Below are positions 5,334-57,412 of a DNA stretch of 64,000 nt, in pieces (within the stretch, counting starts at the first letter, position 1; each line of letters starts with the position of its first letter). Where the stretch lies: assembly GCF_006517175.1 (NCBI RefSeq), contig NZ_CP041186.1, forward strand, positions 3,623,074 to 3,687,073, given 5' to 3'. Origin of the DNA: Persicimonas caeni. GTDB taxonomy: Bacteria; Myxococcota_A; Bradymonadia; Bradymonadales; Bradymonadaceae. The notes beneath the pieces were generated by a model. The model was not told the DNA's origin. It did not search any database and saw only the letters and a list, made by a program, of their open reading frames with translations. The position numbers and the translations under genes are program-made.

Positions 5334-7355
5334 ATGGCACAAGAGAGTAATGGAAATATGACGGCACGACTTTTGTCGTACGTCTTTGTGGCCCTCATCG
5401 CCTTTGCGGGCGGCTTCATGGTGGGCAACTGGAACACCGACGGCTCGGCCGGCTCCGACGAGAACGCCGGCGCGGCTGCCAAGATGGACGACGGCGGCCA
5501 GGTCGATGGCGACAGCGCCATTCCCATCGGCGACAGCGCCGTGCTCGGAAAAGACTCGGCGATCATCACCGTGGTCGAATTCTCCGACTTCCAATGCCCG
5601 TTCTGCCAGCGCGGCGCGAACACCATGAAGGAGCTCGTCGAGAAGTACCCCAACGACGTGCGCGTGGTCTTCAAGCACTACCCGCTGCCGTTCCACAAAG
5701 AGGCGCCGGCCGCCTCGAAGGCCGCCATCGCTGCCGGCAAGCAGGGCAAGTTCTGGGAGATGCACGACTGGTTGTTCGAAAACCAAAAGCAGCTCAAGCA
5801 GCACTCTGGCGACATGAAAGAGTGGACCGCTGGCCACGCCAAGGAGCTGGGCCTCGACGTCGCCAAGTTCAAGAAGGACTTCGACGCCCCCGAGACCCAA
5901 AAGCAGATCGACGAAGACATGAAGCTCGGCCAGGAAGTCGCCGTGCGCGGCACGCCGCACTTCTTCGTCAACGGTGAGCGCGTCAAAGGCGCCAAGCCGA
6001 TTTCGGCTTTCGAAGAGATCGTCAAGCGTCAGATCAAAGAGGCCAAAGGCATGCTCGGCCAGGCCGGCGTGACCCGCGCGAACCTCTACGAGAAGATGGT
6101 CGCCAAGAACTTCGACGGCGGCAAAGAGAAGCCGCAGCAGAAGCCCAACAAGCCGGCCCAGAAGGTCGAGTTCGTCCCCGTCGAAGAGGGCGACCCGATG
6201 TTCGGCAACGCCAAGGACCCGCTCGTGACCATCGTCGAGTTCTCGGACTTCCAATGCCCCTTCTGCGGCAAGGTCCTGCCGACCCTCGACAAGATCAAAG
6301 AAGAGTACGGCGACCAGGTACGCGTGGTCTTCAAGCAGCTTCCGCTGGGCATGCACGCCCAGGCCAAGCCGGCCGCACAGGCCGCTCTCGCCGCTCACAA
6401 GCAGGGCAAGTTCTGGGAGATGCACGACAAGCTGTTCGAAAAGCAGCGTGAGATGCGCGCCAACGCCAACAACTTCGAAGAATGGGCTGCCGGCCTGGCC
6501 AAAGAGCTCGGCCTGAACGTGGCCAAATTCAAGAAGGACTACAACGACCCGGCGATCGCCGCCAAGGTCGAGCGTGACCTGAAGCTGTCGCAGAAAGTCG
6601 GCGCCCGTGGCACCCCGAACTTCTGGATCAACGGCGTCAACCTGCGCGGCGCTCAGCCCTTCCCGAGCTTCAAGGCCGAGATCGACAAGCAGATCAAGCT
6701 GGCCAAAGAGCTCAAGAAGAAAGGCCTGTCGGGCGAAAAGCTCTACAAAGCCGCCGTGGCTGAGAACAAGAAGAACGCGCCCAAGGCCGCTCCGCAGCCC
6801 AAGCGCGACCAGCCGGCCCCGAAGGTCGACGTCAAGGACCTGGCCACCGGTGATGCCTACACCAAAGGCCCGGACAACGCTCCGGTCAAAATCGTCGAGT
6901 TCACCGACTTCCAATGCCCCTACTGCAACCGTGGTGGCAAGAACATGAAGGAAGCTGCCAAGGAGTTCGGCGACAAGGTCCAGATCATCGTCAAGAACTA
7001 CCCGCTTCCGTTCCATAAAGAGGCTCCGGCCGCCGCCAAAGCAGCCATGGCTGCCGGTGAGCAGGGCAAGTACTGGGAGATGTACGACCTGCTCTTCCAG
7101 AACCAGCGTCGCCTCAAGGAAGACGGCATCTTCAAGGAGCTGGCCAAGCAGCTGGGCCTGAACATGGCCAAGTTCAACAAGGACATGCAGAATCCTGAGT
7201 ATGACAAGATCATCAAGCAGGATATGGCCCAGGGCCAGAAGGTCGGCGTGCGCGGCACCCCCGCCTTCTTCATCAACGGACGTCGCGTCGTCGGTGCTCA
7301 GCCGCCGTCGAAGTTCAAGTCCGAGATCGAAGCCGCTCTCAAAGAAGCCAAGTAA
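5334..7355 (+). CDS. Membrane-anchored triple DsbA-like thioredoxin protein A
   Basis: 673 aa. An N-terminal transmembrane anchor (residues 11-30, LLSYVFVALIAFAGG) is followed by three DsbA-like thioredoxin domains (DSBA_Thioredoxin_4 type). Active sites are CPFC at 88-91, CPFC at 308-311 and CPYC at 528-531, an exact 220-residue period. Each is followed by KxYPLPFHKEAPA- or KQLPLGMHAQ-type helices and by a cis-Pro loop (RGTPHFFVNG, RGTPNFWING, RGTPAFFING). Family members oxidise or isomerise disulfides outside the cytoplasm. Domains are joined by Lys/Pro-rich linkers ending in LYxxxVAxN. The start is the ATG with GAGGA upstream; an internal ATG at 5358 is possible. It is the first of three tandem paralogs and is followed by a strong terminator. 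Confidence 0.92.
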   Translation: MAQESNGNMTARLLSYVFVALIAFAGGFMVGNWNTDGSAGSDENAGAAAKMDDGGQVDGDSAIPIGDSAVLGKDSAIITVVEFSDFQCPFCQRGANTMKELVEKYPNDVRVVFKHYPLPFHKEAPAASKAAIAAGKQGKFWEMHDWLFENQKQLKQHSGDMKEWTAGHAKELGLDVAKFKKDFDAPETQKQIDEDMKLGQEVAVRGTPHFFVNGERVKGAKPISAFEEIVKRQIKEAKGMLGQAGVTRANLYEKMVAKNFDGGKEKPQQKPNKPAQKVEFVPVEEGDPMFGNAKDPLVTIVEFSDFQCPFCGKVLPTLDKIKEEYGDQVRVVFKQLPLGMHAQAKPAAQAALAAHKQGKFWEMHDKLFEKQREMRANANNFEEWAAGLAKELGLNVAKFKKDYNDPAIAAKVERDLKLSQKVGARGTPNFWINGVNLRGAQPFPSFKAEIDKQIKLAKELKKKGLSGEKLYKAAVAENKKNAPKAAPQPKRDQPAPKVDVKDLATGDAYTKGPDNAPVKIVEFTDFQCPYCNRGGKNMKEAAKEFGDKVQIIVKNYPLPFHKEAPAAAKAAMAAGEQGKYWEMYDLLFQNQRRLKEDGIFKELAKQLGLNMAKFNKDMQNPEYDKIIKQDMAQGQKVGVRGTPAFFINGRRVVGAQPPSKFKSEIEAALKEAK

Positions 7356-7385
7356 GCTGAGGCTTCTTAGCTGATTAACAACAAA

Positions 7386-7418
7386 CCCCGCCGGTCCTCG
7401 TGGCCGGCGGGGTTTTTT
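7386..7418 (+). terminator. Rho-independent terminator after paralog A
   Basis: The stem CCCCGCCGG (7386-7394) pairs with CCGGCGGGG (7404-7412), with a 9-base loop and a run of six T (7413-7418). It lies 31 bases after the stop, so the first triple-DsbA gene is probably transcribed separately from the next. Confidence 0.9.
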
Positions 7419-7491
7419 GTTGCCGCTTGCGACTCTTCACTGCCTGCCGCTAAGGTCGCCGCACCAGACAGATACTTTTTGCGGAGAACCT

Positions 7492-9513
7492 ATGAAGTTT
7501 CGATTGTTTCGAGTCGTCGTGATGCTTTCGAGCCTGTGGATGGCGAGTTGTTCTAGCAGCCCACCGCAAGAGACCGACCAAGCACCGGTGGAGCAAACCG
7601 CCGACAAGGCGGGCACCGAAGAGCAAGAGAATCCCAACGAGGCCGAAAGCGACATCCTTCCCGTCGGCGACAGCCCGGTGCTGGGCAAGGCCGACGCCCC
7701 GGTGACCATCGTCGCCTTCTCCGACCTGCAGTGCCCATTCTGCGCACGTGGCGCCACCACGATGCACCGCCTCGTCGACAAATACCCCAACGACGTGCGC
7801 GTGGTCTTCAAGCACTACCCGCTGCCGTTCCACCAGCAGGCCGACGAGGCCGCCAAGGCGACCATCGCCGCCGGCAACCAGGGCAAGTTCTGGGAGATGC
7901 ACGACTGGCTGTTCGAAAACCAGCGACAGTTCAAGGTCCACCAAAACGGCTTCAAGGAGTGGACCTCCCAGCGCGCCAAAGAGATGGGCTTGAACGTCGA
8001 GCAATTCGAGGCCGACTTCGACGCCCCCGCCACCCAGAAGCAGATCGACGACGATATGAAGCTCGGCCAAGACGTCGCCGTGCGCGGCACGCCGCACTTC
8101 TTCGTCAACGGCGAGCGCGTCCGGGGCGCCAAGCCGCTGGCGGAGTTCGAGGCGGTGGTGAAACGCAAGCTGAAGCAAGCCAACGAGTTGCTCTCGGAGG
8201 ACGGCGTGAGCCGCGAGGCGCTCTACAAAAAGGCCGTGGCCGAAAACTACACCAAGCCCGAGCCGCCCAAGCGCAGAAAGTCGCACAAGCCAAAGACCAG
8301 AGTCGAGTATGTGCCGGTCAGCGACCAGGACCCGATGTTCGGCAACACCAAAGACCCGCTAGTGACCATCGTCGAGTTCAGCGACTTCCAATGTCCCTTC
8401 TGCGCGAAGGTGACTCCGACGCTCGACCAGATCAGCAAAGAGTACGGCGACCAGGTACGCGTGGTCTTCAAGCAGCTTCCGCTGGCCATGCACGCCCAGG
8501 CCAAGCCGGCCGCGCGCGCCGCGCTCGCCGCCCACGAGCAGGGCGCGTTCTGGGAGATGCACGACAAGCTGTTCGAGAAGCAGCGCGAAATGCGCGCCAA
8601 CGCCGACAACTTCGACGCGTGGGCGATTGATGTCGCCCAAGAGATCGGTCTGGACGTGGCCAAGTTCGAGAAGGACTACAACTCCGACGCCATCGCCCAG
8701 AAGGTCGAAGACGACCTGGAACTGGCGCAGAAAGTCGGCGCCCGCGGCACGCCCAACTTCTGGATCAACGGCGTCAACCTGCGTGGCGCTCAGCCTTTTC
8801 CGGAGTTCAAAGCCGAGATCGACAAGCAGATCAAACTCGCCGAGCAGCTTCGCGACGACAAAGGCCTCGAGGGGGAGGCGCTCTATAAGGCCGCCGTCGC
8901 CAAAAACGAAGCGGACAACCCGCAAAAAGATGACAAGCCGGCCGTGCGTAAAAAGCCCGAGCCCAAGATCGACACCAGCAAGCTCGTGGTCGGTCAGGCT
9001 CCCATCTTGGGCCCGAAGGACGCTCCGGTGACCATCTTCGTCTTCTCCGACTTCCAGTGCCCCTACTGCAAGCGGGGCATTCAGAACGCCGAAGCTGCCC
9101 TCAAGAAGCACCCGGACGAGGTGCGTCTGGTCTACAAGCACTACCCGTTGCCGTTCCACAAGGAGGCCAAGCCGGCTGCCAAGGCGGCCATGGCTGCCGG
9201 TGAGCAAGGCAAGTTCTGGGAGATGCACGACAAGCTGTTCGAAAAGCAGCGCGAGATGAGGAAGCACAGCGCCGACTTCGACGCGTGGGTCGCGGGACTC
9301 GCCAAGGAGATGGGCCTCGACGTCGCTCAGTTCAAAGAGGACATGAAGAAGCCCGAGTACGACAAGATTATCGAAGCCGACATGAAGATGGGTCGAGAAG
9401 TGGGCGTGCGAGGCACCCCGGTATTCTTCGTCAACGGCGTGCGCGTGGTCGGCGCCCAGCCCACCTCGAAGTTCGACAGCACCATCAAAGAGGAACTCGA
9501 CGAGGCGAAGTGA
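7492..9513 (+). CDS. Lipoprotein with three DsbA-like thioredoxin domains, paralog B
   Basis: 673 aa from the ATG at 7492, chosen because GGAG lies seven bases upstream and because it gives a lipoprotein signal (MKFRLFRVVVML... WMASC, lipidated Cys about residue 19). Three DsbA-like domains carry CPFC (81-84), CPFC (301-304) and CPYC (523-526), with cis-Pro loops RGTPHFFVNG, RGTPNFWING and RGTPVFFVNG. Domains 1 and 2 match the same-numbered domains of paralog A more closely than they match each other, so the domain triplication came before the gene duplication. Where A has a membrane helix, B has a lipid anchor. The anchoring residue at -3 of the lipobox is Met, a little unusual. Confidence 0.92.
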   Translation: MKFRLFRVVVMLSSLWMASCSSSPPQETDQAPVEQTADKAGTEEQENPNEAESDILPVGDSPVLGKADAPVTIVAFSDLQCPFCARGATTMHRLVDKYPNDVRVVFKHYPLPFHQQADEAAKATIAAGNQGKFWEMHDWLFENQRQFKVHQNGFKEWTSQRAKEMGLNVEQFEADFDAPATQKQIDDDMKLGQDVAVRGTPHFFVNGERVRGAKPLAEFEAVVKRKLKQANELLSEDGVSREALYKKAVAENYTKPEPPKRRKSHKPKTRVEYVPVSDQDPMFGNTKDPLVTIVEFSDFQCPFCAKVTPTLDQISKEYGDQVRVVFKQLPLAMHAQAKPAARAALAAHEQGAFWEMHDKLFEKQREMRANADNFDAWAIDVAQEIGLDVAKFEKDYNSDAIAQKVEDDLELAQKVGARGTPNFWINGVNLRGAQPFPEFKAEIDKQIKLAEQLRDDKGLEGEALYKAAVAKNEADNPQKDDKPAVRKKPEPKIDTSKLVVGQAPILGPKDAPVTIFVFSDFQCPYCKRGIQNAEAALKKHPDEVRLVYKHYPLPFHKEAKPAAKAAMAAGEQGKFWEMHDKLFEKQREMRKHSADFDAWVAGLAKEMGLDVAQFKEDMKKPEYDKIIEADMKMGREVGVRGTPVFFVNGVRVVGAQPTSKFDSTIKEELDEAK

Positions 9514-9565
9514 CCACCGCCGGACTTTTGTGGCCAGAAGCGAAGTTGTCCTCTTGATGCACACT

Positions 9566-9598
9566 GCGGCGAGCACTATGTTCGCCGCATCTGTTTTA
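9566..9598 (+). terminator. Hairpin between paralogs B and C, terminator-like
   Basis: GCGGCGA (9566-9572) pairs with TCGCCGC (9582-9588). It is followed by ATCTGTTTT. The T-run is short, so termination may be partial. It sits 20 bases before the Shine-Dalgarno (GAGGAAC) of the third paralog. Confidence 0.5.
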
Positions 9599-9617
9599 CC
9601 TCCGAGGAACAACGCTC

Positions 9618-11639
9618 ATGCTAAATAAGTCGCTTGTCGCGCTTCTGGCCGCTCTCTCCCTTTTCGCCGCCGCCTGCTCTGGCGGCGAAGCCACCCGCAA
9701 AGACAACGGCGAGCCCAGCGATTCGCTGACCGCTCAGTCCGACAAGACCGCCCAGGAGGCTCGCGCCAAGAGGGTCGACGTCGCCGACAGCAAGATCATT
9801 CCCGTGGGCGACTCGCCGCAGCAGGGGCCGGCCGACGCGGCCGTGACCATCGTGGCGTTCTCGGACTTCCAGTGCCCCTTCTGCTCGCGGGGCGCGGCCA
9901 TCGTCGACGAGCTCCTCGCCGACGACGACTACAAGGGCAAGGTTCGGGTGGTCTTCAAGCACTACCCGCTGCCGTTCCACCGCCAGGCCAAAGACGCCTC
10001 GCGTGCGGCCATGGCCGCCGGTGAGCAGGGCAAGTTCTGGGAGATGCACGACCTGCTCTTCGACAACCAGCGCGAGTTTCGCGGCAAAGACACCGCCCAG
10101 ATGAAGGAGCTGACCGCCGGTTATGCCGAGCAGCTCGGCCTCGACGTCGAGCAGTTCAGAGCCGACTTCGACAAGCCCGCCTACGCCGCCGAGATCGAAG
10201 AGGATCTCGAGCTCGTCGAAAAGCTCGACGTGCGCGGCACCCCCAACTTCTACATCAACGGCGTCAACATCGTCGGCGCCCAGCCGCTCGACCGCTTCCA
10301 AGAGATCGTCGACGAACAGCTCGAGATGGCCGCCCGAAAGAAGAAGGAGGGCGTCTCCGCCGACCAGATGTACCAGACGCTGGTCGCCGCTAACTACGCA
10401 GAGGCCCAGGCCCGCGGTGAGGTCGACGCCAAGCCGCCCGAACCCGAGCAGATCGTCGAGATGGTCCCCGTCGACAAAGACGACGCCGTCAAAGGCTCGG
10501 CCGACAAGGCGTTGGTCACCGTCGTCGAATTCAGCGACTTCCAGTGCCCTTTCTGCAGCAGAGCTGCGTCGACCGTCGACCGGATCGAGGAGAAGTACGG
10601 TGACAAGGTGCGCGTGGTCTTCAAGCACCTGCCGCTGCCGTTCCACCAGGAGGCCGACGAGGCCGCCAAGCTAGCCATGGCCGCCCAAAAAGAGGGCAAG
10701 TTCTGGGAAATGCACGACCTGCTCTTCGAACATCAGAGCGCGCTTCGTGAAGAGGGGACCTTCGTCGACCTGGGCAAAAAGGTCGGCCTGAGCGAGCGCC
10801 AGGTCGAGCGCGCCCTCGCCAGCGACACCTACCAGAAGCGCCTCGAAGAGGACATCAAGCAGGCCCAGAAGGTGGGCGCGCGCGGCACGCCGACCTTCTT
10901 CATCAACGGCGTGCAGCTCGTGGGCGCCCAGCCGTTTTCGGCCTTCGAGGCCGTGATCGACGAGCAAATTGAGGTCGCCGAGAAGCTTCAAAAAGACAAG
11001 AAAGTCTCCGGCGAGAAGCTCTACGAGGCGGCCGTGGCCTACAACAAGGCCAACGCCCCCAGCCCCGAAGCCGGCGCCGGCGCCGGCGACGAGGAGCCGG
11101 CGCCGCGCGTCGACACCAGCAAGCTGAGCGTCGACAAGGATCAGGTCAGAGGCCCGGCCGACGCCAAGGTCACCGTCTTCGTCTTCTCCGATTTCCAGTG
11201 CCCCTACTGCCGCATGGGCGCCCAGCGCTTCGACGAGGCGCTCGAGAACGTCAAAGACGAGGTCAAGGTGGTCTACAAGCACTACCCGCTGCCGTTCCAC
11301 AAAGAGGCCGAGCCCGCCGCCAAGGCGGCCATGGCCGCCGGCGAGCAGGGCAAGTTCTGGGCGATGCACGACCTGCTCTTCCAGAATCAGCAGCGCCTGA
11401 CCGAAGAGGGCATCTACGCCGAGCTGGCTAAAAAACTCGGCCTCGACGTCGAGAAGTTCGAAAAGGACATGGGTAAAAAGGCCTACGACGAGCAGATCGC
11501 CGCAGACATGAAGCAAGGTGACGCCATCGGCGTGCGCGGCACCCCGTCGTTCTTCATCGACGGCACCCGCGTCGTCGGCGCCCAGCAGCCCGAGACGTTC
11601 GAGAAGGCCATCAAAGAGGCGCTCTCGGAAAAGCAGTAA
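9618..11639 (+). CDS. Lipoprotein with three DsbA-like thioredoxin domains, paralog C
   Basis: 673 aa. A lipoprotein signal (SLVALLAALSLFAAAC) leads into a short acidic spacer and three DsbA-like domains with CPFC (86-89), CPFC (310-313) and CPYC (528-531). The cis-Pro loops are RGTPNFYING, RGTPTFFING and RGTPSFFIDG. The second domain has diverged most from A and B: the PLGMHAQAKPA helix of their domain 2 is here PLPFHQEADEA, like domain 1, which suggests domain replacement or conversion. A good Shine-Dalgarno (GAGGAAC) precedes the ATG. The role is presumably oxidation or isomerisation of exported proteins such as the Cys-rich lipoproteins of this region. Confidence 0.92.
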   Translation: MLNKSLVALLAALSLFAAACSGGEATRKDNGEPSDSLTAQSDKTAQEARAKRVDVADSKIIPVGDSPQQGPADAAVTIVAFSDFQCPFCSRGAAIVDELLADDDYKGKVRVVFKHYPLPFHRQAKDASRAAMAAGEQGKFWEMHDLLFDNQREFRGKDTAQMKELTAGYAEQLGLDVEQFRADFDKPAYAAEIEEDLELVEKLDVRGTPNFYINGVNIVGAQPLDRFQEIVDEQLEMAARKKKEGVSADQMYQTLVAANYAEAQARGEVDAKPPEPEQIVEMVPVDKDDAVKGSADKALVTVVEFSDFQCPFCSRAASTVDRIEEKYGDKVRVVFKHLPLPFHQEADEAAKLAMAAQKEGKFWEMHDLLFEHQSALREEGTFVDLGKKVGLSERQVERALASDTYQKRLEEDIKQAQKVGARGTPTFFINGVQLVGAQPFSAFEAVIDEQIEVAEKLQKDKKVSGEKLYEAAVAYNKANAPSPEAGAGAGDEEPAPRVDTSKLSVDKDQVRGPADAKVTVFVFSDFQCPYCRMGAQRFDEALENVKDEVKVVYKHYPLPFHKEAEPAAKAAMAAGEQGKFWAMHDLLFQNQQRLTEEGIYAELAKKLGLDVEKFEKDMGKKAYDEQIAADMKQGDAIGVRGTPSFFIDGTRVVGAQQPETFEKAIKEALSEKQ

Positions 11640-23353: not shown

Positions 23354-23377
23354 GGAGGCAGTGCTTCTAGCGCTGGT
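23354..23377 (+). repeat. Structured repeat, GGAGGCAG-hairpin family, copy 1
   Basis: AGGAGG followed by the hairpin CAGTGCT-TCT-AGCGCTG (23359-23375) and GGT. The 7-bp stem contains one T-G pair. It matches the elements at 25383-25458, 25470-25543 and (minus strand) 50064-50088 in the fixed positions GGAGGCAG, CTTC, AG, CTGG, while the variable stem positions change in a pairing-preserving way. Confidence 0.7.
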
Positions 23378-23388
23378 CGCAAACTCTT

Positions 23389-23489
23389 CCTCTCCGCCCG
23401 CAGCGAAGCAAAGGGAAGGAGAGGACCGAGGAGAGGCCCCCCTCTCCACCCGAAGCGAAGCGAGGGAAGGAGAGGGAGCGAGGGAGAGG
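23389..23489. repeat. Tandem 50-base repeat, each unit a dyad
   Basis: Two neighbouring copies (23389-23436 and 23441-23489) of a unit that begins CCTCTCC and ends GGAGAGG, with GCGAAGC and AGGGAAGGAGAGG inside. Each unit can fold on itself. It lies between the converging ends of the DUF4241 and cysteine desulfurase genes. Confidence 0.7.
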
Positions 23490-23509
23490 CCAGCGACACG
23501 GAGGAGGAT

Positions 23510-25382: not shown

Positions 25383-25543
25383 TTTGGAGGCAGACCTTCC
25401 AGGTCTGGTGGCAGAAGCGTGCAGCCTTGCGCCCAGGGCAAGATGCCCTGCCTCCAAAGGCCGCTGTGGTTTGGAGGCAGACCTTCCAGGTCTGGTGGCA
25501 GAAGCGTGCAGCCTTGCTCCCAGGGCAAGATGCCCTGCCTCCT
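25383..25543 (+). repeat. Two tandem copies of a three-way-junction structured repeat
   Basis: Copy 1 (25383-25458): outer stem TTTGGAGG/CCTCCAAA, hairpin CAGACCT-TCC-AGGTCTG (25391-25407), a 26-base linker, and hairpin CAGGGCA-AGA-TGCCCTG (25434-25450). The two hairpins are flush against the outer stem, so a three-way junction forms. Copy 2 (25470-25543) repeats the order with a shorter outer stem (TTTGGAGG versus CCTCCTAT). The period is 87 bases. The first hairpin is the same family as the ones at 23354 and before recD, with compensatory base changes. Confidence 0.85.
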
Positions 25544-47896: not shown

Positions 47897-50059
47897 CTAT
47901 CGAGAGGAGCCCAACTTCTGAGCCACCCCCGAAAACCGGCGCACCGGGTTGTTCGCGGCGGCCTCGATGCGCGCCTGCTCGCCGACGAGCACGACCGAGC
48001 GTTTGCTACGGGTCATGCCGGTATACAAGATCTCGCGGGTCAGGAGCGGGATGTCTTCCGTCGGCAGGACGACCGCCACGGTGTCGAACTCCGAGCCCTG
48101 CGCCTTGTGAACCGTCAGCGCGAAGGCGTGCTCGATGTGGCGGCGAATGGGTTGGATATTGAACGGGACGAACTCGCCGTCGCGCTCGAAGATGGCCATC
48201 TGTTGAACGCGCCTAAAGTCGCCATCGGTGCGCACGACGTCGAGGACGAGGCCCTGGTCGCCGTTGAACAGTCCGCGTCCGTAGTCGTTCTGGAGCATGA
48301 TGATCGGCTCGCCGACTTCCAGATCTCCAGCGTTCGTGCGGCCCAGGAGGCGCAAATGGCGGGCGTGGAAGGCGGCGTTGAGGCGCTCGGAGCCGGTGGC
48401 GAAGACGCGGGTGATCGCCAGCACGCGGAACTCGGCGAAGTGCTCGAAGAGTGCGCGAAGCTCGGCGGTGGCGTCGGCCGAGAATTCGGTGCCGTCGTAC
48501 TCGAAGGTCTGCAGGATGCGCTCGCGGAAATTCGTGAGCGATCCGATGAGCTTGGCGTACCACCAGTCGACGAAGCCGTTCATCAAGACCGGGTCGGGGG
48601 CGGGGGCGTCCTCGGCGGGTTCGATCAGCTCGACGCCCTCGCGCAGCATCTCGTCGAAGCCTGTGCGGCGGTCGACGAGCGGGCTGTCTTCGGTCGAGTC
48701 ACCAGTTGAGCCACCAGAAAAGAGCGGCGCGACCTCGCCGCGGTTCAGCGCCTGGGCGGCGCGCAGGATATTGGCGCCGGCAGGGTCGTTGGGGTCCATG
48801 CGGTAGCTCGTCTCCAGGCGCACTGCGAAGCCCGCGGTGGGCTCGTCGCTCGTGGTCTCGTCGAGCGACGGGCTCGACGTGGACTCCACGAGCTCGCGCC
48901 AGGGCGTGCGTGTGTCGACCTGCCAGGGGACGAGATCGCGAAAGACCGCGCCCGAGTCGACCGACGGGAGCTGCTCGGCGTCGCCTAGCAAGATGAGCCG
49001 CGCGCCGGGATCGACCGCGCTGATGAGCCGCTCCATCAAGAAGAGATCGATCATCGACGCCTCGTCGACGATGATCACGCGCTGCCGAAGGCGGTTATTC
49101 TCGTGGTAATAGAACCCGTTACGCGCCTGGGAGTAGCCGAGGAGCCGGTGGAGCGTGCGCGGCTCGTCGAGCTCGGCGAAGAGCGCCTGCTCGGGGGCGT
49201 CGCGCCCGTCGAGGGCCATGAGTTGGGCGTTGATCGACTCGCCCAGGCGGTTGGCTGCCTTGCCCGTGGGCGCGGCGAGCGCGATCTCGTCGGGGGCGAT
49301 GCCCAGGCGGACGAGCATGCGCATGAGTGAGACGACGATGGAGGTCTTGCCGGTGCCCGGGCCGCCCGAGATGATCGTCAGCGGGCGGTACACCGCGGTG
49401 AGCAGCGCGTATTGCTGCTCGGCGTTGAGCTGCATCGGCACGCCGTCGCCCACCAGCGGCATGGCGGCGAGGGTGTCGCCCAGGGCCTGTCGGACCGCGT
49501 CGAGTTCGAGGTCGGCGTTGCCAAGCGCCATGCGCTCGCGCACCGCGGCGACCAGGCGCGTCTCGTAGTGCAGCATGCGCTGGTGGTACAGGTGTCCGTC
49601 GTCGACGATGAGCGGGCAATAGTCGTCGGGCCCGCCGATGACCGTCGAGGCGATGCCCTGCTCGAGCAGGTTCTGAAGCGTCTCCAACATGGTGTCAGAC
49701 ACCGTGTCGTCGGCTTTTCGTGCAGGCCGATTTCGTGCGGGCAAGAGTTCTCGGATCAATTCGCGAAGGTGGCTCTCCTCGCCGGCGTCCAGCGGCAGCC
49801 GGGTCGACCCGTTTCGCTGCTCGACAATGGAGGCGAGCACGAGCAGCAACAGCGCGCGCCGCTCGTCGCGCGACAGCGCGTTCTCGAGGCTGACGAGCTC
49901 GCGGGCGTAATGGACGATTGCCGCCGACAGGTCGTGGTCGGCGGCGCGATCGGCCAGGCACGCCTCGAAGTCGGACAACAGGGCGTGGCGGCGCTTGGCG
50001 AGGCCCTTGGGCTTCTTGGTGGCCTGCTCGGCCGGTATGGAGAAGAGGTCTTGTTGCAT
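47897..50059 (-). CDS. recD: Exodeoxyribonuclease V alpha subunit (RecD)
   Basis: 720 aa. The fast 5'-3' helicase subunit of RecBCD, the enzyme that processes DNA ends for recombinational repair. An N-terminal RecC-contact region of about 200 aa is followed by Walker A (SGGPGTGKT, residues 231-239), the helicase motif II region (VIIVDEASMIDLFLMERL), the Gln/Asp motif LLGDAEQLPSVDSGAVF and, near the end, the UvrD-like motif ALTVHKAQGSEFDTVAVVLP and GMTRSKRSVVLVG. The protein is slightly longer than E. coli RecD, with an acidic insertion around 395-470. It starts 27 bases after the recB stop, behind an unusual folded ribosome-binding site. Confidence 0.95.
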   Translation of the reverse strand: MQQDLFSIPAEQATKKPKGLAKRRHALLSDFEACLADRAADHDLSAAIVHYARELVSLENALSRDERRALLLLVLASIVEQRNGSTRLPLDAGEESHLRELIRELLPARNRPARKADDTVSDTMLETLQNLLEQGIASTVIGGPDDYCPLIVDDGHLYHQRMLHYETRLVAAVRERMALGNADLELDAVRQALGDTLAAMPLVGDGVPMQLNAEQQYALLTAVYRPLTIISGGPGTGKTSIVVSLMRMLVRLGIAPDEIALAAPTGKAANRLGESINAQLMALDGRDAPEQALFAELDEPRTLHRLLGYSQARNGFYYHENNRLRQRVIIVDEASMIDLFLMERLISAVDPGARLILLGDAEQLPSVDSGAVFRDLVPWQVDTRTPWRELVESTSSPSLDETTSDEPTAGFAVRLETSYRMDPNDPAGANILRAAQALNRGEVAPLFSGGSTGDSTEDSPLVDRRTGFDEMLREGVELIEPAEDAPAPDPVLMNGFVDWWYAKLIGSLTNFRERILQTFEYDGTEFSADATAELRALFEHFAEFRVLAITRVFATGSERLNAAFHARHLRLLGRTNAGDLEVGEPIIMLQNDYGRGLFNGDQGLVLDVVRTDGDFRRVQQMAIFERDGEFVPFNIQPIRRHIEHAFALTVHKAQGSEFDTVAVVLPTEDIPLLTREILYTGMTRSKRSVVLVGEQARIEAAANNPVRRFSGVAQKLGSSR

Positions 50060-50086
50060 ATGTACCAGCGCTGGAAGCGCTGCCTC

Positions 50087-50088
<2 letters not shown>
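50060..50088 (-). promoter_or_regulatory. recD ribosome-binding site with a hairpin between SD and start
   Basis: On the minus strand AGGAGG (50088-50083) overlaps the recB stop TAG, but lies 23 bases from the recD ATG. The 17 bases after it fold into CAGCGCT-TCC-AGCGCTG (50082-50066), leaving 6 bases (GTACAT) before ATG. Folding would bring the SD to the ideal distance, as known for T4 gene 38. The same motif AGGAGG plus hairpin is a dispersed repeat in this window (23354, 25383, 25470), with compensatory stem changes. Confidence 0.75.

Positions 50089-53632
<3,544 letters not shown>

Positions 53633-53824: not shown

Positions 53825-57412
<3,588 letters not shown>

Follow-up and report, generated by a model that had tools for sequence, protein, structure and literature searches.

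In the predatory bacterium Persicimonas caeni, the end of recB and the start region of recD share a copy of a dispersed 22-nt REP-type repeat, which carries the only Shine-Dalgarno (SD)-like sequence of recD and puts a hairpin between it and the start codon. As judged from RNA folding predictions, the repeat very likely offers recD a ribosome-binding site (RBS) whose spacing is shortened by this hairpin, and ribosomes probably use its SD for recD. With about 200 copies in the genome, the location of this one is best read as a chance outcome that has been tolerated or co-opted, rather than as an evolved regulator.

The window, which is the whole 64,000-nt stretch of DNA that was analyzed, contains the exonuclease V genes on the minus strand in the order recC, recB, recD (recCBD; Table 1). 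The identities of recB and recD were confirmed with NCBIfam and Pfam profiles, and the start of recD is backed by an N-terminal (Q)xDLF motif that is conserved among relatives: the protein begins with MQQDLFS here, with MTQQDLFS in the nearest relative and with MSDGQQSLF, MTDAQTDLF or MAGQLDLF in other relatives. The minus-strand sequence of the junction is CGC TAC TAG GAGG CAGCGCT TCC AGCGCTG GTACAT ATG CAA CAA GAC CTC TTC. As the initial annotation had stated, and as can be read directly from these letters, an AGGAGG overlaps the recB stop codon and lies 23 nt before the recD ATG in linear spacing, a distance that is reduced to 6 nt when the perfect 7-bp hairpin folds.

Table 1. Features of the recCBD region and copies of the repeat in the window.
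Feature	Position	Strand	Remark
recC (exodeoxyribonuclease V gamma)	53825..57412	-	PF04257
recB (exodeoxyribonuclease V beta)	50087..53632	-	best NCBIfam match TIGR00609, below the TIGR00609 cut-off
recD (exodeoxyribonuclease V alpha)	47897..50059	-	TIGR01447
recB stop codon TAG	50087..50089	-	repeat begins with the G of this TAG
AGGAGG, SD-like repeat head	50083..50088	-	only SD-like sequence of recD
REP-type repeat copy GGAGGCAGCGCTTCCAGCGCTG	50066..50087	-	solitary, sense to recB and recD
Hairpin, 7 bp and 3-nt loop, between SD and start	50066..50082	-	-9.6 kcal/mol alone
Stem arms CAGCGCT and AGCGCTG; loop TCC	50082-50076 and 50072-50066; 50075-50073	-	
GTACAT, 6-nt spacer	50060..50065	-	remains once the hairpin folds
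recD start ATG	50059-50057	-	
Repeat copy GGAGGCAGTGCTTCTAGCGCTG	23354..23375	+	starts 14 nt past a stop codon
Repeat copy GGAGGCAGACCTTCCAGGTCTG	25386..25407	+	first half of an inverted pair
Inverted repeat copy GGAGGCAGGGCATCTTGCCCTG	25434..25455	-	
Repeat copy GGAGGCAGACCTTCCAGGTCTG	25473..25494	+	first half of a second inverted pair
Inverted repeat copy GGAGGCAGGGCATCTTGCCCTG	25521..25542	-	

A new family of REP-type repeats with a GGAG tag includes the junction block as an ordinary member. The pattern GGAGGCAGNNNNTNNNNNNCTG matched 197 times in the 8.05-Mb genome (103 forward and 94 reverse) and the reversed pattern, used as a control, only three times; therefore, the family is not a product of chance. 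The junction block had initially been described as the same as three other repeats in the window, which are the copies at 23354, 25386 and 25473. These copies do share the head GGAGGCAG, the loop region and the CTG(G) tail; they are not identical, however, because their inner stem bases vary, with covariation between the arms. Two inverted copies, at 25434 and 25521, had been overlooked, as had the genome-wide family of about 200 copies. Covariation was assessed on 158 copies (35 distinct sequences) that were retrieved without a pairing requirement at four inner stem positions; across the distinct sequences, 89% of the pairs were formed, compared with a mean of 59% and a maximum of 69% for shuffled partners. 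The tag of the repeat is GGAG(G); of 145 copies, 138 have a T at -2. Six sampled copies complete a TAG stop for a called gene. A search of the whole window against Rfam returned no match.

The copies were further surveyed in their genomic context over about 1.6 Mb, comprising contiguous sequence taken without bias (800 kb), the window with a right-hand extension and stretches picked around known copies; genes were called with a simple hexamer model, and their start positions are approximate. Nearly all copies were intergenic (157/166), mostly 3′ of genes, and they fell into 76 clusters, 50 of which contained at least two copies (exactly two in 38), many of them as inverted pairs. When labeled by their first copy, 5 of the 76 clusters lay in divergent and 28 in convergent gaps, which make up 29% and 15%, respectively, of the intergenic length in the unbiased blocks, so that clusters are fewer than expected from length in divergent gaps and more numerous in convergent ones. 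The family thus shows the properties by which REP/BIME elements are recognized, namely, a 22-nt palindromic unit at high copy number, extragenic 3′ placement, inverted pairs and a covarying stem. Further repeat arrangements were also seen. Two neighboring gaps at C1:3488927-3490393 hold head-to-tail arrays of the repeat, one of 11 and one of 3 copies with a period of 30 nt; inverted copies come after the arrays, and the arrangement suggests local tandem amplification. Directly after the copy at 23354, a second, different type of repeat with purine/pyrimidine-rich CCTCTCC...GGAGAGG inverted units occupies positions 23380-23490 of the window, and long modular repeats of ~660 bp occur at 5521-11424 in a run of large plus-strand open reading frames (ORFs).

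We also looked for a transposase that could mobilize the repeat. The genome holds Y1_Tnp matches at 26 places, made up of about 20 multi-copy proteins in frames of roughly 320-520 aa and six short IS200-like ones. None of the 26 has a pattern-matching repeat copy within 1.5 kb, and the six single-domain proteins that were examined matched the IS200 model best, not REP_Tyr_transpos. The assignment as a RAYT-associated REP (REPtron) is not supported, as no cognate RAYT was found beside the repeats. The Y1_Tnp proteins of this genome are possible mobilizers of the repeat and may act in trans.

The repeat is nearly absent outside this genome in the phylum genomes that were searched. A stricter pattern matched 140 times here, but among the other 236 genomes of the phylum (237 searched) it matched once, in one genome, and a looser pattern gave 0-2 matches in each of 20 genomes of the same family, similar to the control; therefore, the family has expanded in this lineage. 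A scan of named genomes for close relatives returned one distant Myxococcales bin. recB and recD overlap by ATGA in many relatives, and in several they are separated by tens of nt, up to about 130; the nearest relative, whose RecD is 58% identical, has its recD ATG 66 nt past the recB stop with no SD of at least 4 nt before it. No repeat or hairpin was found between recB and recD in any relative with a readable junction, which indicates a lineage-specific insertion at the end of recB. Relatives with a normal, closely spaced SD and no hairpin had been named beforehand as the observation that would count against repeat-dependent initiation. What was found agrees with this only in part: the hairpin is absent, several relatives have tight ATGA overlaps, and some of these have a purine-rich, SD-like stretch just upstream, but from this it does not follow that the SD goes unused by recD in P. 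caeni.

The spacing of SD sequences in this genome bears on whether the site is usable. Over 902 well-scored genes, the mode of the SD spacing is 6 nt, which is the folded spacing of recD and not its linear spacing of 23 nt; for GGAGG alone upstream of starts, there are 24 sites at 6 nt and one at 23 nt. When called genes were scanned for an SD, a perfect stem of at least 6 bp and a start at a normal folded distance, recD alone of 1,056 genes had this layout, compared with 0.08 expected after shuffling. The junction hairpin was predicted in every context that was folded, with a pair probability of about 0.8-0.98. In prediction, the recD start therefore has what defines a split RBS: an SD beyond the working distance and a hairpin that restores normal spacing. 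A predicted long-range helix also encloses the repeat (50020-50130, minus strand), formed by the end of recB (GCCGGTA, GAAGAG) and codons of recD (CTCTTC, TACCGGC). Because a strong SD within 25 nt is lacking in 535 of the 902 genes, and the recD of the nearest relative likewise has none, recD may need no SD.

We propose a putative mechanism on this basis. The 3′ end of recB would have received a lineage-specific, GGAG-headed REP-type repeat by insertion or copying. This repeat forms the recB TAG, carries the AGGAGG of recD and places its palindrome between this SD and the ATG. Folding of the palindrome in the recB-recD mRNA would bring the SD to 6 nt from the AUG, and 30S subunits would start recD on the SD of the repeat, with the split site working like those of T4 genes 38 and 25. 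As a whole, this combination of REP insertion, a hairpin-folded split RBS for recD and a location due to chance is, in our judgment, somewhat more probable than not.

The position of the repeat is itself no evidence of selection because random placement alone yields about 0.8 such loci. When each repeat cluster was placed at random within its own gap and in random orientation, a start was preceded at 3-10 nt by a sense copy at 0.84 loci on average, and the probability of at least one such locus was 0.60; one was observed. Thus, shuffling indicates that the layout is not random sequence, and the placement test indicates that it is unsurprising given the repeats. recD is the only coding ORF that starts 2-16 nt after a sense copy. 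All other open frames of at least 40 aa that start within this interval score as non-coding, so that no further split site was found at the other sense copies, and the sampled sense copies gave no sign that the family is used generally as a start site. Selection for the arrangement is therefore not supported. Separately, an inverted repeat pair at C1:5967705-5967753 forms a large palindrome that stops 2 nt short of the called start of a gene for 438 aa, and no SD is visible there.

Initiation of recD might also be explained by coupled reinitiation, in which ribosomes that end recB at the TAG restart at the recD ATG 27 nt downstream, so that the SD and the hairpin are of minor importance and the repeat is incidental. 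The ATGA or near overlap of recB and recD in many relatives suggests that coupling is the usual state, and both the 66-nt gap of the nearest relative and the many genes here that lack a strong SD are consistent with it. However, a stable hairpin inside the 27-nt gap disfavors scanning, and ribosomes could hardly disregard an exact AGGAGG that stands at the modal folded spacing; we regard this account as possible but on the unlikely side. The original claim that the repeat supplied the RBS of recD accordingly holds insofar as the element is real and dispersed, contains the sole SD-like sequence and is predicted to form a hairpin that gives the modal spacing, but recB-coupled reinitiation is an equally simple route. 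The further suggestion that the repeat sets the RecD:RecB ratio is speculation.

The repeat may also act at the other end of the junction. Its hairpin starts 5 nt after the recB stop and could stall ribosomes there, with trans-translation and mRNA cleavage leading to lower RecB/RecD. In the sampled blocks, 26 sense copies start within 15 nt after a stop, and the 15-nt limit has a precedent in E. coli, where REPs this close to a stop cause ribosome stalling and affect the upstream gene, according to the account of Liang et al. (2015) cited in PMC12306157. However, the stem, at 7 bp, is shorter than in E. coli REPs and might just be melted by a ribosome that terminates, and the effect is compatible with the SD being used as well; as an explanation of the junction, we think it rather doubtful. 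Finally, folding might hide the SD, with AGGAGG pairing with CCUCUU (recD codons 4-6) around the hairpin and making recD initiation weak or conditional. Short local folds contain this pairing and leave the GAGG core only about 10-24% unpaired, and the minimum-energy fold of a 61-nt segment favors the paired SD (-15.5 versus -13.7 kcal/mol with the SD kept free). In contrast, in longer folds most SD bases are unpaired at 73-89% and one at 42%, ribosomes translating recB would break up the pairing, and the folding of the whole junction region is ordinary compared with shuffles (z = -0.70). A hidden SD thus seems improbable to us. Reinitiation and REP-induced stalling are real rivals of the split site, and they may act together with it.

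If the recD start uses the repeat, a dispersed bacterial palindrome would have donated a complete, structure-dependent RBS to a gene, and repeats would have a route to rewire translation within operons. The tag is GGAG rather than GTAG; therefore, every sense copy contains a latent SD, and the idea is directly testable. In its strongest form, a mobile repeat with a perfect-SD tag would be a transplantable split RBS that took over the recB stop and the recD start, its folding setting the amount of RecD per RecB; we put this forward tentatively and consider it unlikely. The evidence at present is one case among about 200 copies, at about the frequency expected by chance, that is, a neat accident that is probably used. 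Each component is already known, namely, TAG stops supplied by REPs, the presence of REPs in recBCD genes and SD spacers shortened by a hairpin; their combination is the new part. A literature search found no REP described as supplying an SD, which is no proof of absence.

Compared with known REP/BIME elements, the family is similar in being a short palindrome in more than 100 copies, with an unpaired tag at one end and inverted pairs, which lies mostly between tandem or convergent genes and 3′ of ORFs and sometimes provides a TAG stop. Di Nocera et al. (2013; PMC3733652) described GTAG- and CGTC-tagged REP superfamilies, for which TAG stops supplied by REPs and REPs within recBCD genes are known. 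However, the tag here, GGAG(G), is neither GTAG nor CGTC, which places the family outside these superfamilies, and the family is species-restricted in the genomes searched and has no copy near a RAYT-type transposase gene. The junction resembles the control by E. coli REPs, as represented in PMC12306157, in that, within an operon, the hairpin of a repeat follows a stop at no more than 15 nt, but the E. coli elements act on the upstream gene, whereas the copy here may be the start site of the downstream gene. Experimental precedent for such initiation is provided by T4 genes 38 and 25, in which a hairpin cuts the SD spacing from 22 to 5 nt and from 27 to 11 nt, respectively, and stem-destabilizing mutations reduce initiation (PMC3014915). 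recD similarly has a distant SD, at 23 nt, that a hairpin would bring to 6 nt. The T4 sites were demonstrated by mutation and, for gene 25, by probing, whereas the recD site is predicted, and here the SD and hairpin together are a copy of a dispersed repeat.
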